Both the position numbers and the translations under genes were made by a program. Of a stretch of 64,000 bases of DNA, positions 39,414 to 63,852 are shown piece after piece. Where the stretch lies: contig NZ_CP110128.1 of the NCBI RefSeq assembly GCF_028471945.1, forward strand, positions 4,638,501 through 4,702,500. The letters run 5' to 3'. The first letter of the stretch is position 1, and each line of letters opens with the position of its first letter. The stretch comes from Pseudomonas sp. WJP1. Its GTDB lineage: Bacteria; Pseudomonadota; Gammaproteobacteria; Pseudomonadales; Pseudomonadaceae. A model generated the notes under the pieces. It saw only the letters and a program-made list of their open reading frames with translations. It had not been told where the DNA came from and ran no database searches.

Positions 39414-40907
39414 TTACTCAGACGCGTCAATCCAGATCGTCTTGATCTCGGTGTACTGATCGTGCGCCCAGATGGACTTGTCGCGCCCGCCAAACCCGGA
39501 CTCCTTGTAGCCGCCAAACGGTGTCGAGGCATCGCCTTCACCGAAGCAGTTGACCGTCACGATGCCGGCGCGGATTTCACGCGACAGCTTGATGGCGTGG
39601 CGCAGGTTGTCGGTGTAGACCGAGGCCGCCAGGCCATACACCGAGTCATTGGCCAGGGCGATGGCTTCGTCGAGGGTGGTGAAGGTCGTGACGGCGAGTA
39701 CCGGGCCGAAGATCTCCTCCTGGAACAGCTTGCTGTCGGTGCCCACGCCATCGACCACGGTAGGTTCGACGAAGATATTGCCCTGGGTGTTGCCGCCGAA
39801 CACCACCCGCAGTTTCTCGAGGCCAGCCTGCTCGAGGTAAGAGCGGACTTTTTCGTAATGCGCCCGGCTGACCATGGCGCCCAGGCGGTTTTCCGGGTCC
39901 AGGGGGCTGCCCATTTTCCATTCCAGCATCTGCACGCCGATGCGCTTGAGCAGTTCGTCCTTGATGTCGGCATGCACGATCAGGCGCGAGGAGGCGGAGC
40001 AGTTTTCGCCCATGTTCCAGAACGCGCCGTTGACCACGTGGCTGGCGACCGAGTCGAGGTCTGCCACGTCCTTCATGACCACGGCCGGGTTCTTGCCGCC
40101 GCACTCCAGCACGATGCGCTTGAGGTTGGAATCCGCCGCATAGTTGAGGAAGCGCCGCCCGGTCGCCGTGGAACCGGTGAAGCTGACCATCGACACGTCC
40201 ATGTGCCGGCCCAGCGGCTCCCCGACTTCACCGCCACCGCCGGACAGCACGTTGAACACACCGGCCGGTACACCGGCTTCGAACGCCAGTTCGGCGACCC
40301 GCAGCGCGGTCAGGGTGGTTTCCTTGGCCGGCTTGACGATGATCGAGCAGCCGGCGGCCAGGGACGGGCCGATCTTCCAGGCCAGCATCAGCAGCGGGAA
40401 GTTCCACGGCAGCACCAGGCCGACCACACCGATGGCTTCACGCACCACCAAGGTCAAGGCGCCGTTACCGACCGGTGCCGTGTTGTCGTAGATCTTGTCG
40501 ATCAGCTCGGCATGCCAGCGCAGGGTGTGAATGGTTTCCGGCACATCCGTGAGTTGGCATTCGCGCACCGGCTTGCCGCTGTCCAGGCTTTCCAGCACCG
40601 CCAGCTCGTGGGCGTTCTGCTCCACCAGCTCGGCAAAGCGCAGCAGCACTTTCTTGCGCTCGCCGGGGCTCAGCTTGTGCCAGCGACCGTCTTCGAAGGC
40701 CGCCTTGGCCTTGGCCACGGCGAAGTCAACGTCCTGGGCATTGCAGGCGGTGATCTCGGCCAGCACTTCATCGGTCGCCGGATTGGTCGTGGTGAAGGTG
40801 TTGCCCGACAACGAGGTGTAGGCTTCGCCATTGACGAAGGAGCGGGTCGGGAACTTCAATTCCCGGGCAATGGCGGCGTATTCAGCCGCGCTGAGAAGGC
40901 CAGTCAT
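39414..40907 (-). CDS. NAD(P)-dependent aldehyde dehydrogenase (PuuC/KauB-like)
   Basis: A 497-residue cytosolic enzyme oxidising an aldehyde to an acid. The active site is complete: Asn169 (PWNFP), Glu268 (LECGGK) and Cys303 (ENCSASSR), with the cofactor-loop SFTGSTATGRR near 242. Sequence style fits gamma-aminobutyraldehyde or guanidinobutyraldehyde dehydrogenases. It ends the block A operon and overlaps the DapA-like gene by four bases, so it probably takes that lyase's product. Confidence 0.9.
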   Translation of the reverse strand: MTGLLSAAEYAAIARELKFPTRSFVNGEAYTSLSGNTFTTTNPATDEVLAEITACNAQDVDFAVAKAKAAFEDGRWHKLSPGERKKVLLRFAELVEQNAHELAVLESLDSGKPVRECQLTDVPETIHTLRWHAELIDKIYDNTAPVGNGALTLVVREAIGVVGLVLPWNFPLLMLAWKIGPSLAAGCSIIVKPAKETTLTALRVAELAFEAGVPAGVFNVLSGGGGEVGEPLGRHMDVSMVSFTGSTATGRRFLNYAADSNLKRIVLECGGKNPAVVMKDVADLDSVASHVVNGAFWNMGENCSASSRLIVHADIKDELLKRIGVQMLEWKMGSPLDPENRLGAMVSRAHYEKVRSYLEQAGLEKLRVVFGGNTQGNIFVEPTVVDGVGTDSKLFQEEIFGPVLAVTTFTTLDEAIALANDSVYGLAASVYTDNLRHAIKLSREIRAGIVTVNCFGEGDASTPFGGYKESGFGGRDKSIWAHDQYTEIKTIWIDASE

Positions 40908-41809
40908 TTTGCGCTCCCGGTCACCTGGGCGACCTCACGTTTCAGCGTGGTGATGATCTCCTGCAAGGCCTGTTTCTCGTGCTCGTACATCGGCTGCAGC
41001 GGCGAACGCACACTGCCGGTGCGCAGGCCGTTCAGCTCGCAACCCACCTTGATCGACTGGACAAACTTGCCGCTTTCCAGGAAGTCCATCAGGGGCATGA
41101 AGGCGCTCATGATCTTGCGGCCTTTATCGAAGTCCTTTTCCACCACGCAGGCTTCATACAAGGCCACGTGTTCGCGCGGGATGAAGTTCGAGCCGGCGCA
41201 CACCCAGCTGCGCGCGCCCCAGGCGAAGAACTCCAGGGCCTGGTCATCCCAGCCGCAGGACAGGCTGATGTTCGGGTAGTCCCGCGCCAGGCGATGCACC
41301 TGGGCCATGTCGCCCGAGCTTTCCTTGATGGCGACGATGTTCTTGCTCTCGGCCACCGCGGCGAAATACTCCGGGCCCATGCTCACGCCCATGCGCGCCG
41401 GGTAGTTGTAGAGCATGATCGGCAGGTCGGCGGCACGGTCGACGGTCAACGCGTGGATGGCGTTTTCCTTCTCGGTCGGCAGCGCGTACGGCGGCGAACC
41501 CACCAGGATGGCATCGGCCTTGATGGCGCGGGCGGCCTTGGCATATTCGACCGAGTCTTCGGTGCGGATGGCGCCGGTGCCGATCACCAAGGGCAAGCGT
41601 GTGCCGATCACGTCCTTGGCCTGGGTCGCCAGTTCGATGCGTTCCTGTGAGGTATGGGCGTAGTACTCACCGGTGGAACCACCGATGATGATGCCGTGCA
41701 CCTTGGACTCGATCAGGTACTCGAGCACTTCGGCGAATGCCGCTTTGTCGATGTCACCGCTGGCGGTCAGGGGCGTGATTGCCGGGGTGTAGATGCCTTC
41801 GAATTTCAT
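40904..41809 (-). CDS. DapA-family lyase/aldolase
   Basis: A 301-residue Schiff-base enzyme of the dihydrodipicolinate synthase/N-acetylneuraminate lyase family. Lys162 (VAIKESSGD) is the Schiff-base lysine and Tyr136 (YNYPARMG) the catalytic tyrosine. The carboxylate-binding loop reads GGSTGE in place of GTTGE. True lysine synthesis is unlikely in this catabolic setting. Deamination, decarboxylation or aldol cleavage of a keto acid feeding the aldehyde dehydrogenase is more likely. Confidence 0.88.
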   Translation of the reverse strand: MKFEGIYTPAITPLTASGDIDKAAFAEVLEYLIESKVHGIIIGGSTGEYYAHTSQERIELATQAKDVIGTRLPLVIGTGAIRTEDSVEYAKAARAIKADAILVGSPPYALPTEKENAIHALTVDRAADLPIMLYNYPARMGVSMGPEYFAAVAESKNIVAIKESSGDMAQVHRLARDYPNISLSCGWDDQALEFFAWGARSWVCAGSNFIPREHVALYEACVVEKDFDKGRKIMSAFMPLMDFLESGKFVQSIKVGCELNGLRTGSVRSPLQPMYEHEKQALQEIITTLKREVAQVTGSAK

Positions 41810-41888
41810 GATTACTTCTCCATCACTAAGGGAATAATTTCAATCGTGTGTCCACCACTCTGAGGTGGGGACAACTCACCACTTCGAT

Positions 41889-43220
41889 TCAACTGCTCAA
41901 TGCCGCCGCGTCGCGCAAACTCAGCGAGCGTGTTTCAGGTGCCATGGCCCATGCCGCCGCAAGCCCGATAAAGGTGACAACTGCTGCCACATACATGGTG
42001 TTGCCAATGCCCAGTGTCTGCAGCGAAACCGGCACCAGATAAGTGCCGACTGCTGCACCAATACGTGAAAGCGACGTACCAATCCCCACCGCAAAAGCGC
42101 GAATCTCTGTTGGGAATAGTTCGTTCGGATACACCAACTGTAGTACCTGTGCGCCACCAATAAACAAGGCATAGGCACCAAACAGGAACAAAACAAGAAG
42201 TGCGTTACCACCCGAGAAAGTCGCCAGTAACAACAACGACAATCCCGACCAGAGAAAACTGTGGATCAACATGCTGCGTCGACCGATGACGTTGATCAGC
42301 CACGTTGCAAGAATGCAACCGACGACGAACAACAAAGTAATGACCATGGAGCCATAGGACGCCCACTCGCCTTTCAGATTAAGTGCCAGCAGAACTTTCG
42401 GCGCGAAGGCATAAACAGCGAACACCGGAATAATCGAACACGACCAGAACACCGAGACAAAGAACAAACGCTTGCCATAACCGGAATGCAGCAAATCGCG
42501 AAATGACATTTTCTTTGCGTGGGGTTCTTCAGGCAGGTCCCGTAGCGAATAGTGCTGGCCATAAACCCGCTTGATCACGCCCTCGGCCTCACCGTCGCGG
42601 CCTTTGCTCAACAGCCAGCGCGCGGATTCCGGCGTACCGATGCGCAGCACCAACAAGATCAACCCGACCACAGCGGCGCTGGCCAACGCATAGCGCCAGG
42701 CATCGTCACCGCCCGAATTGAGAATCGCGTTGCCCACGACATACGCGAATGCCGCGCCGGCAAACCACAGGATCGTCAGGGCGGCGAGCCTTGGGCCGCG
42801 TTGTTTCTTCGGCAAGAACTCCACCAGCAGCGACGTCGCCACCGGGTATTCGATGCCCACCGCCAGACCGATGATGAATCGCAAGGCGAACAATGCAGGC
42901 GCCGACTCCACCCAGAATTGCGCCAACGAGCACATGATGAACAGCGATGGCCCGATAAAATAAACTTTCTTGCGACCCAGCCTGTCAGTCAGCCAACCGC
43001 CGAGAAAACCACCAAAAAACACGCCCATCAACGCCGACGCAGCGATCATGCCCTGCCAGAACTCCGAGAGATTCAAGGCAGCGGTAATTTGCATCATCGC
43101 GATGCCGATAATACTCAATACATACCCATCGACAAATGACCCACCCCCCGAACGGGCTGTCAGTAAACGATGAAAGTTATTGAGCGGAACATCTTCAACA
43201 GATGCATTAGGACTTGTCAT
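41889..43220 (-). CDS. MFS transporter (sugar-porter/metabolite:H+ type)
   Basis: A 443-residue inner-membrane transporter with twelve helices and the MFS loop motif GGWLTDRLGRKKVYF between helices 2 and 3, plus PESARWLLSKGR after helix 6. It sits between the FAD oxidoreductase and DapA-like genes, so it probably imports the substrate of block A. GGAGACAATA precedes ATG 43220. Confidence 0.88.
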   Translation of the reverse strand: MTSPNASVEDVPLNNFHRLLTARSGGGSFVDGYVLSIIGIAMMQITAALNLSEFWQGMIAASALMGVFFGGFLGGWLTDRLGRKKVYFIGPSLFIMCSLAQFWVESAPALFALRFIIGLAVGIEYPVATSLLVEFLPKKQRGPRLAALTILWFAGAAFAYVVGNAILNSGGDDAWRYALASAAVVGLILLVLRIGTPESARWLLSKGRDGEAEGVIKRVYGQHYSLRDLPEEPHAKKMSFRDLLHSGYGKRLFFVSVFWSCSIIPVFAVYAFAPKVLLALNLKGEWASYGSMVITLLFVVGCILATWLINVIGRRSMLIHSFLWSGLSLLLLATFSGGNALLVLFLFGAYALFIGGAQVLQLVYPNELFPTEIRAFAVGIGTSLSRIGAAVGTYLVPVSLQTLGIGNTMYVAAVVTFIGLAAAWAMAPETRSLSLRDAAALSS

Positions 43221-43389
43221 TATTGTCTCCTATTTCGCCTCGTTAATTCGATGGACTGAAGCGTAAGCCCAAAATCCGAACAAACAGAAACCGTTGCGGC
43301 AGAATGTGTCAGCCCAATGGGATCACCCACTGAACTAACGCCTGCTACCAACAGATTTAACTCTAACGCTTTAAACAACTACTCTGGAT

Positions 43390-44709
43390 TTAGCTTTCTT
43401 TACCCGCGCGACATTGGCCCCACAGCAAGTTCATATTGACGCCCGCTGAAAGTATCGGCTCAGGCGGGTTTTTATTGGGCCCGGGAGAGGCCAATAGAAA
43501 ATCGATCAGATGACTCTTCTTGCCCGCCAGCCAGTCGGCCAGCAACGTACCCGTGACGGTGCCTCGAGTGACACCCAACCCATTGCAGCACAGGGCGCCA
43601 TAAACGTTATTGGCCAGCTGGCCAAAATGCGCCATGTGGTTTCTGGACAGCGCCAGCGACCCACCCCAGGTGTACTCGAAGTTGACCTCGGGGAGCATTG
43701 GGAACCGGCGCTCGAACGACTCTTTGTGCCGCTCCTTGAACCGCTGCAGGTATTTCTGCTGACTGCGTCCGTCGGCGTTGAAGCTGAAGCTGTTACGCAC
43801 CAGCAGGCGATTGTCGGTCGTACGGCGCAACGTGGTGCCGAAAGGGTCGGCGGGAATCACGCCCCAATAAGGCTTGCCGCCCAAGCGCGCTTGCTCATCT
43901 GGCGTGAGCGGGCGAGTGAGGCTCCCGTAGGTAAAGATCGGCAGCATCCGACCCGTCAAGAAGCCGAAGCTCATGGCGAACGCGTTATTGGTCAGCAGTA
44001 ATTTGTCAGCAACGATCCGTCCCGTCTTATGGATAAGGACGGTCTTTTCCCCATATTCCACTTCAGTGATGGGCGTATTTTCATAAAGCGTGACGTTGGC
44101 CGGCAGTGTATCGGCCAGACCTTTAACCAGCGCGGCCGGCTGTATCAGTGCAGTGCCTGGGGTAAACAAGGCTTTGCGATAGAAGTGCGTGCCGATATGA
44201 CTCGGCAAGTCCTTCTCTTCGATCATCTGGTATTCCTGACCGAGCTTGTCCAGGCCGCGACGGTAAGCATCCAATACCCCGATGCCGCGATCTTCAATGG
44301 CAGCCTGGTACTTTCCACACAGGCGGAATTGACACTCGATGCGGTGTTTTTCAACGAGATCTTTCAGGATGGATTGACCCGTCAGGTTCAACTCCATGCT
44401 GATCTTCGCCGTCTTGATATCACCGATATAGTCGTCAGCGCCGATATCGTGTGGCAGGTCAATGGCGAAGCCGGCGTTTCTTCCGGATGCGCCATAGCCC
44501 ACTTCCTGGGCCTCGATCAGCACAATCTCGTCATCAGGAAAATTCAGCGCCAGCTGACGCGCTGCCGCAAGTCCCGTGAATCCCGCCCCCACTACAACCC
44601 AACGGGCGGTACGGGAACCCTGGAGCGCTGGACGAGCGACCCTGGGTTGGCTGAGGTGAAACCAGCCACATGTAGCGTCATCTGCCGGTGTGTTTTTGAC
44701 TTTAGTCAT
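43390..44709 (-). CDS. FAD-dependent amine/amino acid oxidoreductase (DAO family)
   Basis: A 439-residue flavoprotein. The dinucleotide-binding segment is VVVGAGFTGLAAARQLA at about residues 38-54, with the acidic residue in VLIEAQ. SGRNAGF follows, and the C-terminal FAD part is GVTRGTVTGTLLADWLAG. Relatives such as PuuB or sarcosine/glycine oxidases dehydrogenate amine C-N bonds. It is strongly similar along its length to the protein at 62416 but lacks that protein's leader. It is the first structural gene of block A after gntR1. Confidence 0.88.
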   Translation of the reverse strand: MTKVKNTPADDATCGWFHLSQPRVARPALQGSRTARWVVVGAGFTGLAAARQLALNFPDDEIVLIEAQEVGYGASGRNAGFAIDLPHDIGADDYIGDIKTAKISMELNLTGQSILKDLVEKHRIECQFRLCGKYQAAIEDRGIGVLDAYRRGLDKLGQEYQMIEEKDLPSHIGTHFYRKALFTPGTALIQPAALVKGLADTLPANVTLYENTPITEVEYGEKTVLIHKTGRIVADKLLLTNNAFAMSFGFLTGRMLPIFTYGSLTRPLTPDEQARLGGKPYWGVIPADPFGTTLRRTTDNRLLVRNSFSFNADGRSQQKYLQRFKERHKESFERRFPMLPEVNFEYTWGGSLALSRNHMAHFGQLANNVYGALCCNGLGVTRGTVTGTLLADWLAGKKSHLIDFLLASPGPNKNPPEPILSAGVNMNLLWGQCRAGKES

Positions 44710-44815
44710 TTTCGCGACCTGGTTCTCTTATATTTGTACTTGCCAAAAGCATCCCTTGCGCTCGATGTCATCAAGCCTCATGGCGTGCTCATGCGATTGA
44801 CATCGGTGTTGCCTG

Positions 44816-45538
44816 TTAAAACGTCAGCGCCACATCCAGGCCTTCCGGCGCGGCGTATTCGGACATCCGGCGACGGGACAGTTCCAGATGTGCGCGCGCA
44901 GTCTCCCCGGCCACAACCGGATCATGGTTTTCAATGGCACTGATCATGTCGTCATGCTGCTGGGCTGCCAGCTCCAGGTCTTCCTGCATGTCCACCGTCG
45001 TGGGGTGGCGATAGAAGATCTTGCCCAGCCGCGCATGGTCGATCAGCAGGCGTTGCAAGCTCGGCATCAGATAGGCGTTGTGCGCCATCCTGCCGATCTG
45101 CAAATGGAATTTGTCATTGAACAGCACCCGTTTCTCGACATCCTTTTCCTCAATGGCTGTACGGAAAAACGCCTGGATACGTTTCAACTTTGCGATCTCG
45201 GAAGAGCTTGCGTGGACAGCCGCCAACTGGGTGGTAGCGATGTAAATCAGAGGGGCCGCCAGGAAAAAGCTGCGCAACGATTCATGACTCATGGACGACA
45301 CGCGGGCGGCCCGGTTGGCTTCGAGATCGATGTAACCCTCTGCCGCCAGCTGGCGCATGAGTTCCCGCACCGGAGGGCGAGACAGACCGAACTCGTCACA
45401 CAAGGCCTGCTCATCCACCACCGCGCCTGGCGTCAGCTCCATATTGAGGATCCGCCGGCGCAGCGCTTCTCCCAGCACGGCTTTACGATCAATTGGCAAC
45501 ACGACGGGGGCCTGCTGATCGCGTTCAATTGTGGCCAT
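44816..45538 (-). CDS. GntR-family regulator 1 (FadR subfamily)
   Basis: A 240-residue regulator: winged helix-turn-helix at residues about 20-85 (RRRILNMELTPGAVVDEQALC, LSRPPVRELMRQLAAEGYID) and an FCD-type helical effector domain with metal-ligand residues (FNDKFHLQIGRMAHN, LAAQQHDDMISAI). It probably controls block A. A TTGT-N4-ACAA site lies about 70 bp upstream. Confidence 0.9.
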   Translation of the reverse strand: MATIERDQQAPVVLPIDRKAVLGEALRRRILNMELTPGAVVDEQALCDEFGLSRPPVRELMRQLAAEGYIDLEANRAARVSSMSHESLRSFFLAAPLIYIATTQLAAVHASSSEIAKLKRIQAFFRTAIEEKDVEKRVLFNDKFHLQIGRMAHNAYLMPSLQRLLIDHARLGKIFYRHPTTVDMQEDLELAAQQHDDMISAIENHDPVVAGETARAHLELSRRRMSEYAAPEGLDVALTF

Positions 45539-45602: not shown

Positions 45603-45641
45603 TTATTCTTTGTGTCTACAATTAAAATACAAAGAAAATAA
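45603..45641. promoter_or_regulatory. probable GntR1 operator region
   Basis: Contains the palindrome TTGT-GTCT-ACAA (45610-45621), which has the FadR-type pattern, inside a larger interrupted dyad CTTTGT...ACAAAG. A 10/12 match, TTGTGTATACAT, lies upstream of the FAD paralogue at 62295. Confidence 0.6.
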
Positions 45642-45800: not shown

Positions 45801-46490
45801 TCAATTGAGCTGCTTTGACGCGATCGCCGTCCTGATGGCTTTTGCCGCGTCCTCGATGTCGGCTCGAATGGCGTCGGCCGCCACCTCAGGGTCGTTGTTG
45901 AGAATTCCATTGATGACCGCGGCATGAAGGTTGTGCCCGGTATTGGATAACACCTGGCTGCGCACAATGTTCATCAGCGGGCCATAGCGCATCCACAGCA
46001 ACTCGATCATGTCGATCAACTCATCGTTTCGGCACTGTCGATAGATGGCGAAGTGGAACTGCTGGTTCAGGCGCAGATAACCTTTGCGGTCGTCCGATTC
46101 CACCTTGGCATCCATCTCCAGATTGATGGCCTGCAATTCGTCAGCCAGGGATTTGGCGCAGGCCGACACCGCCAACCGGGTGGCCTCGCCTTCCAGCATC
46201 AAGCGCAGTGGCAGCAGCGCATCCAGCTTGGCCGTGGTCGCTTCCGGCACACGCATCGATCGACGTGGCAAAGCTTCCATCGCCCTGGCGACCACCAGCC
46301 GGTTCATTGCTTCGCGGATAGGCATCTGGCTTGTGCCAAACGCCTCAGCCAGCAATGGCAGCGTCACACGTTGCCCAGGTTCGAACTCACCGATCATGAA
46401 CGACTGCTTCAACGCGCCGTACACGTATTCCAGATCCGATATCGGCCGCCGGGCTTCAAACAGCGGTAGCTCATTTTTACGTTCTGCCAT
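45801..46490 (-). CDS. GntR-family regulator 2 (FadR subfamily)
   Basis: A 229-residue regulator with an N-terminal GntR winged helix (residues about 12-78; LLAEAFGTSQMPIREAMNRLV) and an FCD effector domain (LRLNQQFHFAIYRQCRN, HNLHAAVINGILNNDPEVAADAI). ATG 46490 with AAGGAA upstream is chosen; the reading frame extends 46 codons further without a good start. It is divergent from the carnitine-dehydrogenase-like gene and likely binds the TGATCA sites in the gap and those at 62163 and 62205. Confidence 0.88.
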   Translation of the reverse strand: MAERKNELPLFEARRPISDLEYVYGALKQSFMIGEFEPGQRVTLPLLAEAFGTSQMPIREAMNRLVVARAMEALPRRSMRVPEATTAKLDALLPLRLMLEGEATRLAVSACAKSLADELQAINLEMDAKVESDDRKGYLRLNQQFHFAIYRQCRNDELIDMIELLWMRYGPLMNIVRSQVLSNTGHNLHAAVINGILNNDPEVAADAIRADIEDAAKAIRTAIASKQLN

Positions 46491-46611
46491 ATGCCGTGTT
46501 CCTTGATGAAATTTCGCCCCGCGCTCGTCAATCGGACGTAAGCATGGATTGCCCTGCCAAGCGAAGCATAAGCGCAAGCATATCAGGTGATCGCCACCCG
46601 AAAAAACTTCT

Positions 46612-46661
46612 TGATCAGATATCACCACGAGAGTAGGTTGAATAAAAATATCTGATCAGAT
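46612..46661. promoter_or_regulatory. paired TGATCA operators of block B
   Basis: TGATCA cores at 46612 and 46653 are 41 bp apart. The second sits in the perfect 12-bp palindrome ATCTGATCAGAT (46650-46661), 20 bp before the ATG at 46681. The same arrangement recurs at 62163/62205. Confidence 0.72.
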
Positions 46662-46680
46662 GTCAGAAAAGGAGCGTCCA

Positions 46681-47664
46681 ATGCCGCTGCACACTCAAGG
46701 ATTCAAAGACGAGGTAAACACGATCGCCGTTGTTGGCGCGGGACTTATCGGGTGCAGCTGGGCAGCGCTTTTCGCTGCAGCCGGCAATCAGGTGAACCTG
46801 TATGACAGCCGTCCGGAGGCGGCGCGGTTGATGTCTGATTTCTGGACATCCGTCAAACCGACGCTGATCAAGCTCGGCATGGCGACGGCCGAGACCGTGC
46901 CAAAACTTGAAGTCTTCACAACGCTCGCGGACGCGATACGGGATGCCGACTTCATTCAGGAGTGCATCCCGGAGCGGCTCGACGCCAAGCAAGCGCTTTA
47001 CGCCGAAATGGAGCCCGTACTCAAGCCCCAGGCCATCGTGGCGACCAGCTCTTCTGGCCTGAAACTCTCGGATCTGCAAGCGCAATGGCAAGACCCGGGG
47101 CGCATCATCATCGCCCACCCCTTCAACCCCCCGCACCTGATTCCGCTGGTAGAGCTCTACGGCAACGAACGTACCGCCGAGGGCGTGCTGCAGCGCTCAA
47201 CGGCCCTGTACGAGCGTTGCGGCAAAGTCGTGATCACGCTCAAACGCGAAGTGCTGGCCCATGTTGCGAACCGCCTGCAAGCCGCCCTCTGGCGCGAAGC
47301 CATCCACCTGGTGATCGAAGACGTGGCCAGCCTCAAGGACGTTGACACCGCCGTCAGTGCGGGGCCGGGCTTGCGCTGGGCGGTCATGGGGCCTCACCTG
47401 TTGCTCAACCTGGGCGGTGGTGAAGGCGGCTTGCGCGCCTACTGCGAGCAGTTCAAGGACAGCTACCACCAATGGTGGGATGACCTGGGCACTCCGCAAT
47501 TGACAGCACAGAACATCGACAAGCTGGTGCAAGCGCTGGGCGAGGAAATCGCCGGCCGCGATTACAACCAGCTGCGCAGTGAACGCGACAACAAGCTGGT
47601 CGCCATTCTCGGCGCCATGAAGGACGTCGAAGCCAAACACCTGAAGGCTGACGACGTCGCGTAA
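46681..47664 (+). CDS. L-carnitine-dehydrogenase-like 3-hydroxyacid dehydrogenase
   Basis: A 327-residue NAD-dependent enzyme of the 3-hydroxyacyl-CoA dehydrogenase fold. The Rossmann motif VVGAGLIGCSWA is at residues 17-28. Other family segments are FIQECIPERLDAK, the substrate-side motif HPFNPPHLIPLVEL (about 141-154) and GPGLRWAVMGPHLLL (about 231). It resembles carnitine dehydrogenases, which oxidise the 3-hydroxyl of a quaternary or primary amino acid. AAGGAG favours ATG 46681 over 46660. First gene of block B. Confidence 0.87.
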   Translation: MPLHTQGFKDEVNTIAVVGAGLIGCSWAALFAAAGNQVNLYDSRPEAARLMSDFWTSVKPTLIKLGMATAETVPKLEVFTTLADAIRDADFIQECIPERLDAKQALYAEMEPVLKPQAIVATSSSGLKLSDLQAQWQDPGRIIIAHPFNPPHLIPLVELYGNERTAEGVLQRSTALYERCGKVVITLKREVLAHVANRLQAALWREAIHLVIEDVASLKDVDTAVSAGPGLRWAVMGPHLLLNLGGGEGGLRAYCEQFKDSYHQWWDDLGTPQLTAQNIDKLVQALGEEIAGRDYNQLRSERDNKLVAILGAMKDVEAKHLKADDVA

Positions 47665-47717
47665 CACGCTGCAACCACTCAATGACAAAACCAACGTGAT
47701 CAACAGTGAGGATGTCC

Positions 47718-48623: not shown

Positions 48624-49057
48624 ACATGTCGCCCCTGAACATCTCCCTCAGTTCGGCAGTCGTTCATCATTGGCATTGCGACCATTACGGACACATGAAC
48701 ACTCGCCACTACGCGGCGTTGTTTGACGATGCCATCTTTCTTTTCTGGGGTCGCCTGGGCAGGGATTCACACTCCACCGACAAGGCCCGGATCGTGCCGG
48801 TGACCGCTGAAATGAAAACCGGCTTCATCGCCGAAGCTCAAGCCGGAACCATCGTCGCGCTGAATGCACAGGTGATCAGAGTCGGATCAAAATCCGTGAG
48901 TCTGCGCTTTGAAATGACAGAGTCAGGTGCCAACAGGCTGTTGGCCACCTGCGATGTCGTGGAAGTGTTCTTTGACACGCATACGCGAAGCAGCCAACCG
49001 ATCCCGGACCCTATTCGACAACAGCTTCAGGAGGTATTCACTCCCCTTCCCTCTTGA
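48620..49057 (+). CDS. acyl-CoA thioesterase (hot-dog fold)
   Basis: A 145-residue hot-dog thioesterase of the 4-hydroxybenzoyl-CoA type: HWHCDHYGHMNTRHYAALFDDA carries the catalytic aspartate and histidine environment. It overlaps the BKACE stop by four bases. It should hydrolyse the acyl-CoA made by BKACE, completing a carnitine-like module of dehydrogenase, cleavage enzyme and thioesterase. Confidence 0.88.
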   Translation: MNMSPLNISLSSAVVHHWHCDHYGHMNTRHYAALFDDAIFLFWGRLGRDSHSTDKARIVPVTAEMKTGFIAEAQAGTIVALNAQVIRVGSKSVSLRFEMTESGANRLLATCDVVEVFFDTHTRSSQPIPDPIRQQLQEVFTPLPS

Positions 49058-56520: not shown

Positions 56521-56550
56521 GAGCACCTCGAAGTCCGGACAACAGGGCTA

Positions 56551-56591: not shown

Positions 56592-58721
56592 TTAAGGGGC
56601 TACAGCCACTTCCCTGGCCCTGGCCTTGGGTTTGCTCTGCTTGCCACTGGTGTCGACGTTCATCACGAAGTAGCCATTTTCGCGGGTCTCCAGCGAGGCA
56701 AACGGCGGCACCAGAATCGTAGTGTCGGGCAACACCACCAGAGCCGGCCCCGGCACGCTCATGCCGAACTGCAGCCTGTCACCGGAATACACCGGGGTTT
56801 CGACGCTACCGTAGTCACCAAAATAGGCCTGGCCGGTGCTCAGCAGCGCGGCGTCCAGGGAACAGTCGGTAGCGCGCGGCTGTACGGTGAGCTGGATTTC
56901 AGGACGATTGAAGGTGGCCATGTTGCGCCACATGACGAACTCGATGGCCGAAGCGGGATCGTTGGTTTTATAGCGAGCCAGGTAAGCCTCGTGGAACTGT
57001 TGGGTAATCTGCTCGATGGTGGCCGCGCTGATCTTGCCCTCGTCGAGCGTGAAGGGAATTTCTAGCTCGGTGGTCTGCAGCGGATAGCGTGCCGAAACGA
57101 ACAGCTCGAAGCACTGGTCCTGCTCTGCGACACCCATGCGGGTAAGGAAGGCAGTGCCCTTGCGGGTGATGCCGGCAATGGCCTGGTTGACCCCCTCGTA
57201 ATCGAAATTGCCGGTGTCGCTGTACTTGGTCACCACGTCGCTCATGGCAATCGGCGCATTGTTGGCACCGAAGGCGCACAGCACGGACGTCTCGCGCGGG
57301 ATCACGATTTTCTTGATGTCCATTTCCCGCGCCAGGAACGAGACCGGAATGGAGGTGGCACCGCCGCCGGTGACCAGGGCGAATTCGCGCGGGTCGACGC
57401 CGCGGCGGATCGTCATGTCGAGGATCCCGCCGATCATGTTCTCGTTGACCACCTGGGTGATGCCGAACGCGGCTTCTTCGACACTGATGCCCAGCGGGTC
57501 GGCGATATAGTCCTTCACGGCCTTGTAGGCCAGGTCGCGGTCAATTTCCATGCGCCCGTTGAGGAAGTATTTCGGGCTGATGTAGCCCAGTACCACATAG
57601 GCGTCGGTCACCGTCGGCTCCACACCGCCGCGCATGTAGCACGCAGGGCCCGGGATCGCTTCGGCGCTGCGCGGGCCAACGCTGATCAAGCCGCTGGCAA
57701 TGCTGGCGATCGAACCGCCGCCGGCACCCAGGGTGGCAATCTCGATAGAAGCCACGCCCGTGGGGTAGTTGAGGATGCGGCCGTCCTTGGTCGTGGTGAT
57801 CTGTCCTTCGAGCACGGTGGACACATCGAAGCTGGTACCGCCCATATCAACAGTAATGCAGTTGTCGACACCTTCGATCCTGCTGAAGTAATACCCGGCC
57901 GCCGGCGCCATGGACGGGCCGGAGAACAGCATGAACACGGGCTTTTTGGCCACTTCCGAAATCGGCACCACGCCCCCGTTGGACACCACGATCAGTGTTT
58001 CACCGGTAAAGCCACGTGCTTCGAGCTCACCTTGCAGGTTGTTGAGGTAGCGGCTGACCTTCGGTTGCAGCATCGCATTGAGTACCACGCAGCTGGTGCG
58101 ATGGTATTCGCGAATGATCGGCTGGATGTCGCAGCTCAGGCAGTAATCCACACCGGGCCACTCTTCTTCGATGATCTGGCCGATGCGCCGTTCGTGAACC
58201 TCATTGACGATCGACCAGAGGGTGCACACGGCGATGGCTTCGACACCCCAGGCCTTGAGCTGGCGAATTTCCGCGCGCACTTCGTCTTCGTCCAAGGCCA
58301 GCAGGACCTCACCTTCGGCGTTGATCCGCTCGGTCACTTCGCGGCACAGGTAAGGGCGCAGCAACGGGGTATTGGCGTCCATCTTGTAGTCGAACATCGT
58401 CTGGCGACGGCCTTCGCCGCGCCACAGATTGTATTTGGTGCCGCGCGTACAGATCAGCCCGGTCTTGGCGCCGCTCATTTCCAGGATGGTGTTGGTCGCC
58501 GTGGTCGAGCCATGGCAGAACACCGAGGTCTTTGCGAGCAACTGCTCCAGGGTCAGACCAAGCTCGTCGGCCGCCAGGGTCATGGCATTGAGGATGCCGA
58601 TGGAACGGTCCTGCGGTGTGGTCGGCGACTTGTGCCGGCCCAATTGGCTGAAAGTCTCGGACTCGGCGATGGTCAAGTCGGTAAAGGTGCCGCCTACGTC
58701 AACACTGATGCGAAATGTCAT
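56592..58721 (-). CDS. hydantoinase/oxoprolinase subunit A (HyuA)
   Basis: A 709-residue subunit of an ATP-dependent amide hydrolase. The N-terminal ATPase part starts SVDVGGTFTDLTIAES, followed by FCHGSTTATNTILEM, VDMGGTSFDVS (about residue 290) and LGAGGGSIASI. With HyuB it hydrolyses cyclic amides such as 5-oxoproline or N-methylhydantoin, or carboxylates ketones in the acetone carboxylase branch. Substrate unknown here. It is 19 bp after hyuB. Confidence 0.9.
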   Translation of the reverse strand: MTFRISVDVGGTFTDLTIAESETFSQLGRHKSPTTPQDRSIGILNAMTLAADELGLTLEQLLAKTSVFCHGSTTATNTILEMSGAKTGLICTRGTKYNLWRGEGRRQTMFDYKMDANTPLLRPYLCREVTERINAEGEVLLALDEDEVRAEIRQLKAWGVEAIAVCTLWSIVNEVHERRIGQIIEEEWPGVDYCLSCDIQPIIREYHRTSCVVLNAMLQPKVSRYLNNLQGELEARGFTGETLIVVSNGGVVPISEVAKKPVFMLFSGPSMAPAAGYYFSRIEGVDNCITVDMGGTSFDVSTVLEGQITTTKDGRILNYPTGVASIEIATLGAGGGSIASIASGLISVGPRSAEAIPGPACYMRGGVEPTVTDAYVVLGYISPKYFLNGRMEIDRDLAYKAVKDYIADPLGISVEEAAFGITQVVNENMIGGILDMTIRRGVDPREFALVTGGGATSIPVSFLAREMDIKKIVIPRETSVLCAFGANNAPIAMSDVVTKYSDTGNFDYEGVNQAIAGITRKGTAFLTRMGVAEQDQCFELFVSARYPLQTTELEIPFTLDEGKISAATIEQITQQFHEAYLARYKTNDPASAIEFVMWRNMATFNRPEIQLTVQPRATDCSLDAALLSTGQAYFGDYGSVETPVYSGDRLQFGMSVPGPALVVLPDTTILVPPFASLETRENGYFVMNVDTSGKQSKPKARAREVAVAP

Positions 58722-58740
58722 GTTTGCTAACCTCGTGGTC

Positions 58741-60624
58741 TCAGGATGGGCGACTCATCTGTGCGCGCAGGGCCGCGGTGGCCTGCGTGTCGACGGCGAA
58801 AAGCTCCGGCACGGTGTCGAGCACGACGCCGTACAGCTCACGCGCGGCATCGAGCGTAATGAACCCATCGCGGGCGTCGTCACGGACCTTTTGCGGATCC
58901 CGCTCAAGCGGGTTGCCGAAGCCACCTCCACCCCCGGTCTTGGCGTACCAGTGCTGGTCATGCCGGCAGATGGCCTCTCCCATGTTTTCCAGATGTTCTT
59001 CGATCGCCTGGCTCTGGGCGTTGACCAACCAGTGATCGGCCACGGTGCCGCCCTCGCCGCCGAACAGGCCGAACGCCGGATGGGTGTGGCCCGTCCCGCA
59101 ATAGATCAATTGCATGTCATGACCGATCGGCTGCTGGCGGTGCGACATGGATATCCCGCCACGCCACTTGCCGGCGCCACCGGAATTGGGCTCGGCCTTC
59201 ACTTCCCAGACAATGTGCGGCAAGGATTGCTCGTGGATCTCGATCGATTCGTAACCCATGTTGCCCATGATGCAGTGGCCGAACATGTGAGGCAGGCCGT
59301 CAAACCCTTCCGTCGCTCCCGCGGCACTGGCCGCCAGGTAATGCAGGTGACCATAGGGTTCGTTGTTTTTACGCGGGTCCACGCCGGTGCCGGTATGGTT
59401 GGCTGCCGGGTGCTCCCCCATCCCCGCCAGGGCACGGTGCGGCAACACCTTGGCCCAGGTCTTGAACACCAGGTTGGTCACTTCGTCGCTCAGGCCGACC
59501 GTGGCCACTTCAGTACCGACCGGCCATTGCGGAATACCGGCAATCGAACCCACGCGTTGCTTGACGCGAATGCGCTCCAGCGCGCCACTGTTATAAGGAA
59601 GGTCGGGCGACAGCACCGGCAGCGTGCCCTGAATGGCAGTGCACAGGCAGGTGGCGTAACTGAGGTTGTAGCTGAAGTCGATCTGGTCGGGCATTTCGGT
59701 GTAGTCGAAATCGATCGTGCCCTCCTCCGGATCGATGCTCAGCGTCATCTTCAGTTCCAGCGGCTCGTCGATATAACCCTTGAAGCATTCGGACATGAGC
59801 GTTTCGGTGACGGTGATCTTCGGCAGCTTGGCGATTTCCTCGCGCATGGCCCGTTCGCCATGGCGCAGGCATTCACTCAGGCAGCCCTTGAATGTCTCGT
59901 AGCCGAAGCGCTTGCACAGCTCGATCATGCGCGCCTCAGCCACCCACAGGGAACTCAGTTGCGCCAGGAAGTCGCCGTGCCATTGCTGGGAGTAACGGAA
60001 GTTGTAGGCAATGAAGCGCACCAGGTCATCGATGGGCTTGTGATCACGGCAAAGACGCACGCCGGGAAAGTGGAAGCCCTCTTCGTAAATGTCCTTGGCG
60101 AAGGGGTCCATGCTGGTGGGGATATGCGCGCCAATGTCGAGCAAGTGACATTTGGAACAAGCCCACGCCACCAGTTTTCCCTCATAGAAGATCGGCGCGA
60201 ACATGGTGAAATCACCCACGTGCGAGTTGCCGGCATAGGGGGCGTTATTGACGAAGACGTCACCTTCCTTGATGTCATTGCCGAATGCCCGGATAACGAA
60301 ACGCAGCGGCGGGCTCATGGTGCCGACGTGTACCGGGATACAATCGACCATCGACAGGATGGACGCGCCATGGGTGTCGAGCAGACAGCAGGTAAAGTCT
60401 TTGGCCCCATGCAGGATCGGGTTGCGGGCCGTGGCCAGGATAGTCTCGGTCATCTCGGTCATGATGCCCTCGACGCGGGCATGGACCACCGAGAAGGTGA
60501 CCGGGTCGACCTGTTCCGCGCCTGTGTCGAGTGCACCGGGCAGTCCGGCGATTTCCTCGTCACGAATCGGCGAAGCGTATAGCTCGGGCTTGAAGGGCGG
60601 AATCAGGATATCGTCTCTCGTCAT
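58741..60624 (-). CDS. hydantoinase/oxoprolinase subunit B (HyuB)
   Basis: A 627-residue partner of HyuA (VDPVTFSVVHARVEGIMTEM, FVNNAPYAGNSHVGDFTMFAPIF, GGAGKWRGGISMSHR, KTGGGGGFGNPLERDP). Length and the C-terminal GGGGGFGNP loop are as in family members. It follows the Tat-exported binding protein gene by 83 bp, and precedes hyuA and the transporter genes in one operon. Confidence 0.9.
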   Translation of the reverse strand: MTRDDILIPPFKPELYASPIRDEEIAGLPGALDTGAEQVDPVTFSVVHARVEGIMTEMTETILATARNPILHGAKDFTCCLLDTHGASILSMVDCIPVHVGTMSPPLRFVIRAFGNDIKEGDVFVNNAPYAGNSHVGDFTMFAPIFYEGKLVAWACSKCHLLDIGAHIPTSMDPFAKDIYEEGFHFPGVRLCRDHKPIDDLVRFIAYNFRYSQQWHGDFLAQLSSLWVAEARMIELCKRFGYETFKGCLSECLRHGERAMREEIAKLPKITVTETLMSECFKGYIDEPLELKMTLSIDPEEGTIDFDYTEMPDQIDFSYNLSYATCLCTAIQGTLPVLSPDLPYNSGALERIRVKQRVGSIAGIPQWPVGTEVATVGLSDEVTNLVFKTWAKVLPHRALAGMGEHPAANHTGTGVDPRKNNEPYGHLHYLAASAAGATEGFDGLPHMFGHCIMGNMGYESIEIHEQSLPHIVWEVKAEPNSGGAGKWRGGISMSHRQQPIGHDMQLIYCGTGHTHPAFGLFGGEGGTVADHWLVNAQSQAIEEHLENMGEAICRHDQHWYAKTGGGGGFGNPLERDPQKVRDDARDGFITLDAARELYGVVLDTVPELFAVDTQATAALRAQMSRPS

Positions 60625-60707: not shown

Positions 60708-62012
60708 TCAGGCTTGGGTCATCGAATACTTTTTCAGTACCGGCAGGGCGATGTCGCGGTGCTGCGCCCACCAGTCGTGGTCGTTGACCACGCCAGAGAG
60801 CGCGAAACTTCCCTGCTTGAGCACGTACTTGGGGGTAGGCGTCAGCAAGTGATGGTCGGCACCGAAGATGTCCTTGCCCGACCAGGCCGATGTGCCGTAG
60901 ATGGGATGGTCCATGGCGCGAATGCCATAAAGCGTGTTCATCACCGCTTGCGGTTCTATCGAGGGGCTTTCCCGGAATGCCTGGTCAAGGGTGGCCATTG
61001 CCGAGTAGGTGAGCCCGGCAAAACCGATCCATTCGTCCTTGCCGTGGCGTTGCACGTATGTCTGGTACATGGCGTGGGCCTTGGGCGAAAAGGTCGGCTC
61101 CGAGGCATCCACGCCAAAGCCGCAATACAGGCGCCCTTCCAGGTCGTTCAGGTTCACCCTCTGACCGATCTGCGGAAGGTCCCAGGAGTGGGACATCCAC
61201 ACTCCGTCGAACTTCAGCGCCTGCGCGGTTTCCAGAAGAATGGCCTGTTTGCCGGGTGGTAGATCCGAGAAGAAGATCGCGTCGGGCCGGTTTTTCAATA
61301 CGGCGCCGAGCAACGGAAAATAGTCAGTGGTACTGGGATCGAATACTTCGTTATAGACAATCTCCAGACCACCCTGCCCCATGAACGGCGCGCATCCGGC
61401 CTCACTGTAGGCGCGCCCGGAATGGCCGAAGGAGTTGTCCGTGAACAGCAGCGCGACACGCTTGATTGTCGGATGCTGGCTCATGACATGTGAAACCAGC
61501 CCGAGAAATGCCGTGGGCGATCCTGTCAGCCCTCCCATCAGGTACGGGTAATCACTGCTCATGAAGCCGCCGCCATATGAATTGGTCAGCACCTGGCTTT
61601 CGCTGGCAATACGCGCAATCGCCTTGCGCGAGGCTGGCGTGTAGGTCTGGAACATGTATTTGCAGTCATCCTGCTGGATGGCACTGCGAAACGCGCGCAA
61701 CTCTTCCTTGGGGTAAAAGCACACGTTGGTGTAGGCCTTGTAATCGATCAGGTGCCGTGCCCCGTCGCCACACAGAATTCCGCCTTGGCTGTTGTGCTCA
61801 TCAGCCCAGATCTGCCCCGCACGCATGATCGGAACACCCCACTGCGCACATTCGCCTTCCAGGGGGGTGACCATTCCGAGCGTGATTTTGCTCGCCTCGG
61901 CGGCCATGCCGCGCGACGAAATGAACGCGGGGGCCACGGCACCCACCGCTGCAACGGCACCGGCCTTGAGAATTTGCCGCCGGCTCAGCCTCACATCAGA
62001 AAATTCACTCAT
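60708..62012 (-). CDS. Tat-exported ABC transporter binding protein (LivK/AmiC-like)
   Basis: A 434-residue periplasmic binding protein with a twin-arginine leader (LSRRQILKAG, residues about 8-17, then AVAAVGAVAPAF) and a type-1 periplasmic binding fold (ITLGMVTPLEGECAQWGVPIMRAGQIWADEHNSQGG split, RVALLFTDNSFGHSGRAY, DAIFFSDLPPGKQAILLETAQALKF). It serves the Liv-type transporter downstream. Tat export is unusual for this group and suggests folding, perhaps with ligand or cofactor, before export. ATG 62012 with GGGAG is clear. Confidence 0.9.
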   Translation of the reverse strand: MSEFSDVRLSRRQILKAGAVAAVGAVAPAFISSRGMAAEASKITLGMVTPLEGECAQWGVPIMRAGQIWADEHNSQGGILCGDGARHLIDYKAYTNVCFYPKEELRAFRSAIQQDDCKYMFQTYTPASRKAIARIASESQVLTNSYGGGFMSSDYPYLMGGLTGSPTAFLGLVSHVMSQHPTIKRVALLFTDNSFGHSGRAYSEAGCAPFMGQGGLEIVYNEVFDPSTTDYFPLLGAVLKNRPDAIFFSDLPPGKQAILLETAQALKFDGVWMSHSWDLPQIGQRVNLNDLEGRLYCGFGVDASEPTFSPKAHAMYQTYVQRHGKDEWIGFAGLTYSAMATLDQAFRESPSIEPQAVMNTLYGIRAMDHPIYGTSAWSGKDIFGADHHLLTPTPKYVLKQGSFALSGVVNDHDWWAQHRDIALPVLKKYSMTQA

Positions 62013-62159
62013 TTGGTGCTCCCTGGTAGCCGCACTTGCCTGCTGCCGATTCCTCGCCATCACCTGAAAAGGCGCGAGCCGGAATCGATCAGTCACGGGG
62101 AGTGCAGCCGGTGGCGTACCGGCCACCTGTATTGTTGTTATTAAGAGTCACTTTTTGAC

Positions 62160-62212
62160 ATCTGATCAGAGATCTGAAATCAACCTTAGGTCATAGCTGA
62201 TATTTGATCAAA
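62160..62212. promoter_or_regulatory. paired TGATCA operators of block C
   Basis: TGATCA cores at 62163 (in TCTGATCAGA) and 62205 (in TTTGATCAAA) are 42 bp apart, like the pair before block B. They lie between the binding-protein operon and the FAD paralogue. Confidence 0.72.
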
Positions 62213-62294: not shown

Positions 62295-62306
62295 TTGTGT
62301 ATACAT
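62295..62306. promoter_or_regulatory. GntR1-like site before FAD paralogue
   Basis: TTGTGTATACAT matches the GntR1 candidate site TTGTGTCTACAA at 10 of 12 positions and lies 110 bp before the ATG at 62416. Confidence 0.45.
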
Positions 62307-62415
62307 AAATTATTTCAAATGAAGACGCTAAGTTTTAGTGCATCACCGAAGAGGTCGAGCGGGGATGTCCAGCTTGTGTCTTATTCAAACACCCGTTGAA
62401 AAGAGTTGAGTTTGC

Positions 62416-63852
62416 ATGGCAGTTTCAAGAAGAAACGTACTCATTGGTGCAGGTGCAGGTGCTGGAATCATTGCTGCCGGAGGCGCGACAGCATTGCTGC
62501 GCGACGGCGTGCCGAAAGAACCTGATTCATTACTGCGAATCGGCTCGCTTCCTTTGGATGATGCAACGCCTGGCTGGTTCCACACGAGCCGCCTTCGTCA
62601 ACCACAACCGCCCCTGGTCGGTGATGCCAAGGCCCCCTGGGTGGTGGTCGGTGCCGGGTTCACCGGGTTGGCGGCAGCCCGTCAGCTGGCGCTGAACTTC
62701 CCTGACGACACAGTCATTCTCGTGGAGGCGCAACAGGTCGGTTTCGGTACCTCCGGTCGTAATGCCGGCTTCCTTATCGACGTGCCCCATGACATCGGCG
62801 CACCGGACTACATCGGGGATCCGACAAATGCCAGGAATGTCCTGGCGCTCAATCAACGGGGGCAAGGCATACTTCGTGACCTGGTTGAACAACACCACAT
62901 CGTCGACGCCCAGCTTCGTCACTCGGGCAAGTACCAGGCGGCAGTCGAGGACAAAGGCATTGCCGTGCTCAATGCCTACCGTGGCGGCCTGGAAAAGCTG
63001 GGGCAACCTTGTGAGTTGATCGAGGGTTCGGAGCTGCGAGATCACATTGGCACCTCCTTCTATCGCAAGGCGCTATACACCCCCAACACCATACTGGTGC
63101 AGCCGTCGGCGCTGGTGAAAGGCCTGGCCGATTCCCTGCCCGAGAATGTGAAACTGTACGAAGATACGCCGATCACAGCGGTCGACTATGGCGAAAAAAC
63201 CGTCCTGCATCATCCTACCGGCCGAATCACGGCTGACAGGCTCGTGTTGGCGAACAACGCCTTCGGCGCCTACTTCGGCTTCCTGCAAGGGAAGATGTTG
63301 CCGATCTTCACCTATGGCAGCCTGACCCGACCCTTGACGCAAGCCGAGCAGGCCAGCATCGGCGGCAAGGAGTTCTGGGGCGTGATCCCGGCCGACCCGT
63401 TTGGCACGACACTGCGCCGTACCCATGACAACCGGATCCTCGTGCGCAACAGCTTCAGCTTCAACCCCGATGGGCGCGCCAAGACCAACTACACCAACAA
63501 AGTTCGCCCGGCCCACCGGCTTTCGTTCGAGCGACGCTTCCCGACACTGGTAAACGTCGAGTTCGAGCATACGTGGGGCGGTGGATTGGCAATGACGCGC
63601 AACGGTGCGGGCTTCTTCGGTGAGCTAAGGCCCAACGTCTACGGCGCACTGGGCTGCAATGGACTGGGGACAGTGCGCGGCACCGCCACCGGAACGCTGC
63701 TGGCCAACCTGTTGGCAGGCAAACGCGAAAGCCTGACCGAGTACCTCCTGGCCGCACCGAAGCCAAACTGGAATCCGCCCCAGCCGATGCTGTCGATCGG
63801 CGTGAACTTCACTCTGCGAAAAGGTCAGTACGCTGCCGGCCTCGAAGCCTGA
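62416..63852 (+). CDS. FAD-dependent oxidoreductase with Tat-type leader (paralogue of the block A enzyme)
   Basis: A 478-residue flavoprotein. Residues 1-30 form a twin-arginine leader (MAVSRRNVLIGAGAG), absent from the paralogue at 43390. From about residue 48 the two align without obvious large gaps: VVVGAGFTGLAAARQLA, SGRNAGF, IFTYGSLTRPLT, GVIPADPFGTTLRRT, LVRNSFSFN. It may be exported folded with FAD and oxidise an amine in the periplasm. It is divergent from the binding-protein/hyu operon. Confidence 0.87.
   Translation: MAVSRRNVLIGAGAGAGIIAAGGATALLRDGVPKEPDSLLRIGSLPLDDATPGWFHTSRLRQPQPPLVGDAKAPWVVVGAGFTGLAAARQLALNFPDDTVILVEAQQVGFGTSGRNAGFLIDVPHDIGAPDYIGDPTNARNVLALNQRGQGILRDLVEQHHIVDAQLRHSGKYQAAVEDKGIAVLNAYRGGLEKLGQPCELIEGSELRDHIGTSFYRKALYTPNTILVQPSALVKGLADSLPENVKLYEDTPITAVDYGEKTVLHHPTGRITADRLVLANNAFGAYFGFLQGKMLPIFTYGSLTRPLTQAEQASIGGKEFWGVIPADPFGTTLRRTHDNRILVRNSFSFNPDGRAKTNYTNKVRPAHRLSFERRFPTLVNVEFEHTWGGGLAMTRNGAGFFGELRPNVYGALGCNGLGTVRGTATGTLLANLLAGKRESLTEYLLAAPKPNWNPPQPMLSIGVNFTLRKGQYAAGLEA

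Follow-up and report, generated by a model that had tools for sequence, protein, structure and literature searches.

The 64,000-nucleotide stretch analysed here (the window; C1:4638501-4702500 of the 7,004,124-base, single-contig genome of Pseudomonas sp. WJP1) carries three adjacent gene blocks (Table 1). Block A (39414-45538, minus strand) holds genes for an aldehyde dehydrogenase (ALDH), a DapA-family lyase, an MFS transporter, the FAD oxidoreductase DAO1 and the regulator FadR1. In block B, the regulator gene fadR2 (minus strand) diverges from genes for a 3-hydroxy-acid dehydrogenase (DH), a beta-keto acid cleavage enzyme (BKACE), a thioesterase (TE), a periplasmic binding protein, two permeases and an ATPase, and block C (minus strand) comprises LivK, HyuB, HyuA, a fused LivHM, LivG and LivF, with DAO2 divergent from LivK. 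The two DAO-type oxidoreductases are 65% identical and the two FCD-GntR regulators 25%. Gene families were checked against Pfam and NCBIfam profiles; every gene named in a preliminary description of this DNA was found in its place and its family confirmed. As judged from sequence, blocks B and C are one conserved regulon by synteny, operator and joint presence in whole genomes; block A is a Pseudomonas module in its own right, duplicated in this genome and carrying its own operator motif.

Table 1. Genes and operator sites of the three blocks, with positions in the window and profile scores in bits.
Feature	Position	Strand	Remarks
3-hydroxy-acid dehydrogenase (DH), block B, L-carnitine/3-hydroxyacyl-CoA dehydrogenase family	46681..47664	+	Pfam 3HCDH_N/3HCDH; HPFNP motif
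BKACE, beta-keto acid cleavage enzyme, block B	47706..48623	+	PF05853 298.1 bits, cut-off 24.8
Hot-dog thioesterase (TE), block B	48620..49057	+	PF13279 77.5 bits; resembles C-terminal part of PRK07531
Periplasmic binding protein, Pf622/Atu4243 GABA-binding type, block B, SBP_bac_8	49213..50241	+	6dgv/9d57/4eq7 matches
ABC permease 1, PotB/H type, block B	50184..51146	+	start uncertain
ABC permease 2, PotC/I type, block B	51150..51947	+	
ABC ATPase, PotA type, block B	51966..53099	+	
FadR2, FCD-GntR regulator divergent from block B	45801..46628	-	true start probably inside open reading frame
LivF-type ATPase, block C	53155..53862	-	
LivG-type ATPase, block C	53862..54620	-	
Fused LivH-LivM permease, block C	54604..56526	-	top NCBIfam match UrtB, under its cut-off
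HyuA, putative ATP-dependent lactamase subunit, CapA-like, block C	56592..58721	-	NF050156 562.3 bits, cut-off 1000
HyuB, putative lactamase subunit, CapB-like, block C	58741..60624	-	NF050157 309.3 bits, cut-off 1000
LivK-type binding protein, block C	60708..62126	-	PF13458; TAT (twin-arginine translocation) signal match just under its cut-off
FadR2-type operator, exact core TGATCAGATATC	46612..46623	+	
FadR2-type operator palindrome	46647..46664	.	contains TCTGATCAGA at 46651-46660
Operator palindrome upstream of LivK	62157..62174	.	contains TCTGATCAGA at 62161-62170
Additional operator-like site 5' of LivK (one core mismatch)	62199..62210	-	
DAO2, FAD amine oxidoreductase with block A-type operator motif	62416..63852	+	
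Block A-type operator motif TTGTGTATACA upstream of DAO2	62295..62305	+	
Block A operator motif TTGTGTCTACA upstream of FadR1	45610..45620	+	
FadR1, FCD-GntR regulator, block A	44816..45538	-	
DAO1, FAD amine oxidoreductase, block A	43390..44709	-	
MFS transporter, block A	41889..43220	-	
DapA-family lyase, block A	40904..41809	-	
PuuC-like aldehyde dehydrogenase (ALDH), block A	39414..40907	-	519.7 bits, under PuuC cut-off 850

A BKACE scan with one genome per species returned 183 relatives, and among the best 80 of these, 14 were 75-89% identical to the window enzyme and the next was 52% identical. These 14 loci, the window and three plasmid loci (from four plasmid records at 74-78%) make up the 18 loci compared. 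DH lies immediately 5' of BKACE in 18 of 18, the DH match in L014 being only a fragment (22% of the query). Block C genes share the locus with block B in eight (the window, L006, L010, L015, L016, L017, L018 and L086), hosted by two Pseudomonas-like genomes, four Paracoccaceae (L010, L015, L017 and L018), Aureimonas and a Sinorhizobium plasmid (L086, Sinorhizobium sp. BG8). They stand directly next to DH-BKACE-TE or its transporter in L006, L010, L015, L017, L018 and L086; in L016, FadR2 and the block B transporter separate them from the DH-BKACE-TE genes. The order LivK-HyuB-HyuA-LivHM-LivG-LivF-DH-BKACE-TE, all in one direction, is found in L010, L015 and L018, and L086 reads DH-BKACE-TE-LivK-HyuB-HyuA-LivHM-LivG-LivF, with LivF split over two frames. 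HyuA runs past the end of the stretch in L016 and past the contig end in L017, which shows only part of block C; the rest of block C was followed into stretch L191 for L016 and L092 for L006.

The window HyuB is 87-89% identical to the alphaproteobacterial copies and 96% identical to that of G134, the only other genome with both blocks found in the genus (L006, on its contig C44). Five of the 13 clade-B genomes searched whole held a close HyuB (87-88%), always at the block B locus, and the other eight, including that of L014, gave HyuB relatives of at most 32% identity or none at E 1e-50. No block C was seen within the 31 and 25 kb read of the Paracoccus plasmids L087 and L088. Given that eight whole-searched genomes hold block B without C, block C seems to be an upper pathway that was joined to B. 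Block C without B was unseen, but the search began from B and so could hardly reveal it, and two HyuB samples were too sparse to test this, with one of 398 genomes across the phylum at E 1e-120 (the window genome) and one of 345 in the family of the L010 genome at E 1e-180 (that genome itself). Within the genus, HyuB occurred in 2 of 297 genomes and the window-type BKACE in 2 of 194, the identical pair; the combination is thus rare and was presumably acquired horizontally. In a BKACE tree of 89 rows (L088 not among them), the 17 clade-B rows formed one group with support 100/100, and the carnitine BKACE of the same Pseudomonas genome sat in a neighbouring 29-row group, the joining fork having support 99/64.

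The sequence TCTGATCAGA occurs exactly twice in the 7,004,124 bases, at window positions 46651 and 62161, before DH and LivK. We took the 12 bases TGATCAGATATC with at most one mismatch as operator core and scanned the 18 loci for it (the window from 36000 on). In 17 of 18 loci a core, often doubled in tandem, stands immediately 5' of the matched DH start or, in L012 and the window, spans it; L007 and L008 have another before the transporter. The scanned stretch of L014 had no core site, and one stray site (L015, one mismatch) was found elsewhere in the scanned stretches. LivK is preceded by a core in all eight loci with both blocks, as read in the window, L016, L017, L086 and the stretches L092, L188, L189 and L190, which extend L006, L010, L015 and L018. 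The whole genome holds 13 core matches, of which the two promoters account for six (palindrome counted on both strands), vs two for the pattern read backwards; the sole further exact core lies in a stretch read as prophage-like (no family scan) and was taken as chance.

As a stricter test, we measured the distance to a 20-base palindrome within 260 bases before the matched DH start, with 200 shuffles. Fourteen of the 18 loci came within 1-4 mismatches of it; the window, L009 and L012 each had 6 and L014 had 10, and the shuffle means ranged over the rows from 8.7 to 11.3. In the window and L012, the palindrome is truncated by the matched start, and there the best among the 200 shuffles also reached 6. 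The sites at blocks B and C are not explained by chance alone. FadR2 or a relative of 56-75% identity was found at 16 of 18 loci (window counted), at three of these only through the extensions L188-L190, and none was found at L013 and L014. Position and conservation point to FadR2 as the protein that would bind the palindrome. The open reading frames of DH (from 46660, inside an operator) and FadR2 (from 46628) both overlap operator sites at their starts; for DH, the ATG at 46681, preceded by AAAAGGAGCG, is the likelier start. The tie between blocks B and C drawn in the preliminary description is thus borne out by synteny, a common operator and co-occurrence in whole genomes.

Some of the loci had further features of their own. 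At 9721-10888, L014 (Mesorhizobium sp. WSM3860) has a clade BKACE without stops and a DH fragment found by tblastn, with no operator core and no regulator match, and this module appears decayed or rearranged. The gene 3' of TE in L015 encodes an MFS transporter (46.3 bits), a relative in L018 clusters with it, and the genes beyond FadR2 in L188 encode a sulfate transporter; neither helps with the substrate. Among the 120 HyuB matches listed out of 210, P0009-P0084 form a broad group of 57-64% identity that is mostly metagenome-derived, with a few named Deltaproteobacteria, Desulfobacterales or Gammaproteobacteria metagenome-assembled genomes.

The enzymes of block B resemble those of carnitine degradation. 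A carnitine operon lies elsewhere in the genome (C1:6.55 Mb), with an OpuAC-type binding protein, a BKACE, an L-carnitine dehydrogenase, a thioesterase and a gamma-butyrobetaine dioxygenase (454.6 bits, cut-off 414.75). DH, BKACE and TE are 36, 44 and 23% identical to its CdhA, CdhC and CdhB (TE at E 2e-8), the last two of which we take to be of the BKACE and thioesterase classes. Given this homology, the block B substrate is suggested to be a 3-hydroxy acid with an amine on carbon 4. The top NCBIfam matches of DH are carnitine dehydrogenases, and its score against L-carnitine dehydrogenase, 241.3 bits, is under the cut-off of 414, which the genome's own CdhA passes with 663.7. Since the genome holds a separate carnitine operon, carnitine is unlikely, and we rejected it as likeliest substrate on this operon together with the type of the block B binding protein.

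This protein is identical to the Pf622 part of 6dgv in 213 of 277 aligned columns (77%), and is also related to Atu4243. The 6dgv protein is a precursor of the iGABASnFR sensor for gamma-aminobutyric acid (GABA), for which excerpts of PMC12999171 list eight GABA-contact residues. Seven are kept in the block B protein (W9, T13, F100, W202, R205, D228 and Y264), and F102 is replaced by Tyr (residue 127, window 49591-49593), a natural occurrence of the change from Phe102 that, in the same excerpts, was engineered into iGABASnFR2. The genome encodes a 75% relative at C1:4512399, and 85 of 149 genus genomes gave matches at E 1e-100, which suggests that the protein is a second, recruited copy. Its GABA-type site may serve as a pointer to 4-amino-3-hydroxybutyrate (GABOB). 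The other binding protein of the regulon, LivK, matched no solved structure by sequence at E 0.001, and its AlphaFold model (6 sequences) reached a mean pLDDT (predicted local distance difference test) of 38.1.

The BKACE has HIH and GLED motifs, which we take to be its metal site. The closest described counterparts of HyuAB are the ATP-dependent lactamases CapAB, the caprolactamase of P. jessenii (PMC8453981, in excerpt), and OplAB (PMC11033972, likewise). The CapB metal ligands D41, H99, D102 and H124 are all kept in HyuB, as D76, H135, D138 and H160, and the vicinal Cys-Cys is Cys-Ile. HyuA carries DVGGTFTD and DMGGTSFD, matched as motifs without alignment to CapA, which would supply the Asp residues of the ATP site.

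The best explanation, to which we give about an even chance, is a regulon of blocks B and C under FadR2 control that would convert 4-hydroxy-2-pyrrolidone via GABOB to acetoacetate and glycine. FadR2 would control both blocks as one catabolic regulon, and the Liv-type transporter would take up a small neutral lactam, most likely 4-hydroxy-2-pyrrolidone, whose ring HyuAB would open with ATP to give GABOB; the GABA-type ABC transporter of block B could also bring in GABOB directly. DH would oxidize GABOB to 4-amino-3-oxobutyrate, BKACE with acetyl-CoA would convert this to acetoacetate and glycyl-CoA, and the thioesterase would release free glycine, so that the whole would amount to the carnitine route applied to an amine without methyl groups and preceded by lactam opening. 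We infer every reaction step and the substrate from gene content, synteny, operators, and metal-site and GABA-contact residues read from sequence; GABOB and 4-hydroxy-2-pyrrolidone were chosen because they are the smallest compounds fitting the GABA site, the 3-hydroxy group and a lactam precursor. The order of steps foreseen in the preliminary description (HyuAB yielding a 3-hydroxy-4-amino acid that is oxidized and then cleaved by BKACE) fits the anatomy of blocks B and C, with the GABA-type binding protein as a further pointer. Somewhat more tentatively, we would see here a complete and horizontally spread pathway for a hydroxylated gamma-lactam, namely 4-hydroxy-2-pyrrolidone, with two dedicated transporters, one FCD-GntR operator and GABOB passing via BKACE to acetoacetate and glycine, as a GABA-analogue counterpart of carnitine degradation.

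Several observations weigh against this proposal. HyuA (562.3 bits) and HyuB (309.3 bits) both score under the caprolactamase cut-offs of 1000, and 13 of 15 CapB pocket positions differ in HyuB, so the lactam is not fixed. In our reading of the alignments, the window BKACE has Gly at the KCE position taken as Glu14, a residue said to bind the substrate amine. Block B binding proteins at eight loci of other genera (where matched) are only 34-40% identical to that of the window, and the GABA-type protein would thus be a local recruit that need not report the ancestral ligand. Because DAO2 adjoins LivK and another DAO-type oxidase lies near block B in three loci with B only, an N-substituted substrate is possible. 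Finally, the related OplAB of P. putida had only trace activity on gamma-butyrolactam (PMC11033972, in excerpt).

An unlikely alternative is that the same regulon and chemistry act on another, similar substrate. It could be N-methylated GABOB or its lactam, with the FAD oxidases stripping the N-alkyl group, or a six-membered homologue, in which 4-hydroxy-2-piperidone would yield 5-amino-3-hydroxyvalerate and then beta-alanine. DAO2 stands beside LivK in the window, in Ap-967 (L006) some 2.3 kb separate it from block B, and TIGR03329-like FAD oxidases (519-525 bits, cut-off 632.8; 25-27% identical to DAO2) lie near block B in L007, L008 and L009. Among simple lactams, delta-valerolactam and caprolactam were opened well and gamma-butyrolactam only in traces, according to excerpted literature, but the lactamase family, by similar excerpts, also opens five-membered hydantoins and 5-oxoproline. 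Against this alternative, DAO2 bears the block A-type motif, its relatives of 83-87% identity in G067, G157, G257 and G259 stand in stretches without block B or C, in genomes without a window-type HyuB, and no DAO1 or DAO2 relative was matched in the Paracoccaceae loci L010, L015, L017 and L018. The oxidase genes near block B span 16060-17484 in L007, 16298-17749 in L008 and 6006-7391 in L009 (Burkholderia, Paraburkholderia, Azospirillum); an ALDH-like stretch after that of L007 was dropped, as it has no long open frame on its strand.

Decidedly improbable is a division of labour in which block B degrades carnitine or norcarnitine while a hydantoin or lactam is dealt with separately by block C, the two merely having a common regulator. 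The carnitine dehydrogenases among the top matches of DH and the 8 of 13 whole-searched genomes with B but without C would fit it. However, the genome's separate carnitine operon has an L-carnitine dehydrogenase and a gamma-butyrobetaine dioxygenase over their cut-offs, the block B binding protein carries a GABA site, and LivK-HyuBA-LivHMGF-DH-BKACE-TE are co-directional in L010, L015 and L018.

The preliminary description had joined all three blocks in a single pathway tied by shared operator motifs. The motifs are real, but they fall into two separate sets, one common to blocks B and C and another belonging to block A. TTGTGTMTACA has four copies in the genome, before both copies of FadR1, before DAO2 and at one apparently unrelated place, whose neighbours were read as unrelated (no family scan) and which was taken as chance; read backwards, it has no genome match. 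FadR1 is the protein expected to bind it. No FadR2-type core with at most one mismatch occurs in block A within window positions 36000-64000, and block A is thus not tied to B and C by that operator. The block A-type site of DAO2 shares the LivK-DAO2 gap with the FadR2-type sites. Given that TTGTGTMTACA precedes both FadR1 copies and DAO2, DAO2 is probably part of the block A regulon despite this shared intergenic stretch.

The distribution of block A also differs. At E 1e-60, with distant relatives counted in both, DAO1-like proteins were found in 133 of 297 genus genomes and DapA in 75 of 297, 66 of the 75 reaching at least 67% identity, vs 2 of 297 for HyuB. Eight mapped block A loci outside the window with DAO1 of at least 74% identity (L154-L157, L160 and L165-L167) all have DAO1, DapA and ALDH, and none holds a block B or C gene besides distant ABC ATPase matches; L162 and L163 have DapA-ALDH with a DAO of 32-36%. 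In G134, contig C77 holds DAO1 and DapA, and blocks B and C are on C44 (395 kb); of block A-type genes, the 40 kb read around them include only DAO2 and a 64% MFS relative. Independent occurrence of the blocks in relatives, which the preliminary description named as grounds for refuting its reading, is thus seen for block A and not for B and C. A pathway of all three blocks, with block A handling the amine part of the same substrate, has some appeal from their adjacency in the window genome, the block A-type motif at DAO2 inside the block C control region and a GABA permease and an EamA transporter that adjoin block A. Yet the genus counts and the contig separation in G134, on which we rejected it, the absence of a FadR2-type core in block A, and alphaproteobacterial loci with B and C that matched no block A gene except one 36% ALDH in L018 largely refute it, leaving a slender probability. 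The GABA permease gene (702.9 bits vs NCBIfam cut-off 678.1) and the EamA gene lie at 36422-37870 and 38202-39080, beyond block A, and relatives of both stand beside block A and DAO2 in L160.

The second block A copy in the genome, at about C1:2885555-2890268, has no MFS gene. ALDH-DapA is 98.1% identical between the copies over 2409 bp of DNA (window 39414-41822 vs G000:C1:2887860-2890268, L154) and DAO1-FadR1 81.5%, a mosaic pattern suggestive of a recent duplication or gene conversion event. Block A with DAO2 serves perhaps a hydroxyproline-like compound or another amine. In L155 and, as we read it, in L154, block A comes after an OpuAC-type transporter and a racemase-like gene of the proline-racemase family (L155 4749-5747; L154 near 5400-6400). 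The 4HypE motif is presumably Cys/Cys, and the racemase-like protein reads Cys/Gly instead (MCGAG and DRSPGGTG). Because the second Cys is missing from this gene beside the second copy, the textbook hydroxyproline module is no more than a candidate for block A.

Least probable of all is HyuAB as a ketone carboxylase making a beta-keto acid for BKACE (for example, 4-amino-3-oxobutyrate from aminoacetone): acetone and acetophenone carboxylases yield beta-keto acids, the substrate class of BKACE, HyuA scores 336.7 and 216.7 bits against acetophenone carboxylase subunits, and HyuB has a match to acetone carboxylase alpha, but the top matches are the caprolactamase subunits CapA and CapB (562.3 and 309.3 bits), there are only two subunits, and the conserved 3-hydroxy-acid dehydrogenase would be left without a role.

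To our knowledge, HyuAB-type enzymes and BKACE form large families with few natural substrates known. If the lactam-to-GABOB proposal is true, it proposes a natural substrate for a clade each of ATP-dependent lactamases and BKACE and adds a lactam-to-glycine route, and the defined FCD-GntR operator might serve as a hydroxylactam or GABOB sensor. With a transporter of GABA type in the same regulon, the HyuAB and BKACE clades can both be tested using compounds that are obtainable. The enzyme families are known; for their combination in a HyuAB-BKACE pathway, no description was listed by our searches of openly licensed PubMed Central papers, those for GABOB, 4-hydroxy-2-pyrrolidone and BKACE with hydantoinase included.

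Block A holds the same three superfamilies (DAAO, DHDPS and ALDH) as the cis-4-hydroxy-D-proline module described in excerpts of PMC4113996 (eLife 2014), but showed no epimerase. The block B binding protein resembles Pf622 and Atu4243, with 77% identity to the Pf622 part over 277 columns and seven of eight contact side chains, and differs in adjoining a beta-keto cleavage operon. HyuAB is like CapAB and OplAB in its two subunits, the CapB metal ligands and the phosphate-type motifs of HyuA, but is coupled to a beta-keto cleavage pathway. With the carnitine (Cdh) operon, block B shares a 3-hydroxy-acid dehydrogenase, a BKACE-type enzyme and a thioesterase alongside a binding protein gene. The carnitine operon presumably has an OpuAC-type betaine-binding protein (CaiX) and an AraC-type regulator (CdhR), whereas block B, whose proteins are 23-44% identical to the carnitine set elsewhere in the genome, has an FCD-GntR regulator, an SBP_bac_8 binding protein of GABA type and an attached lactam-opening block.

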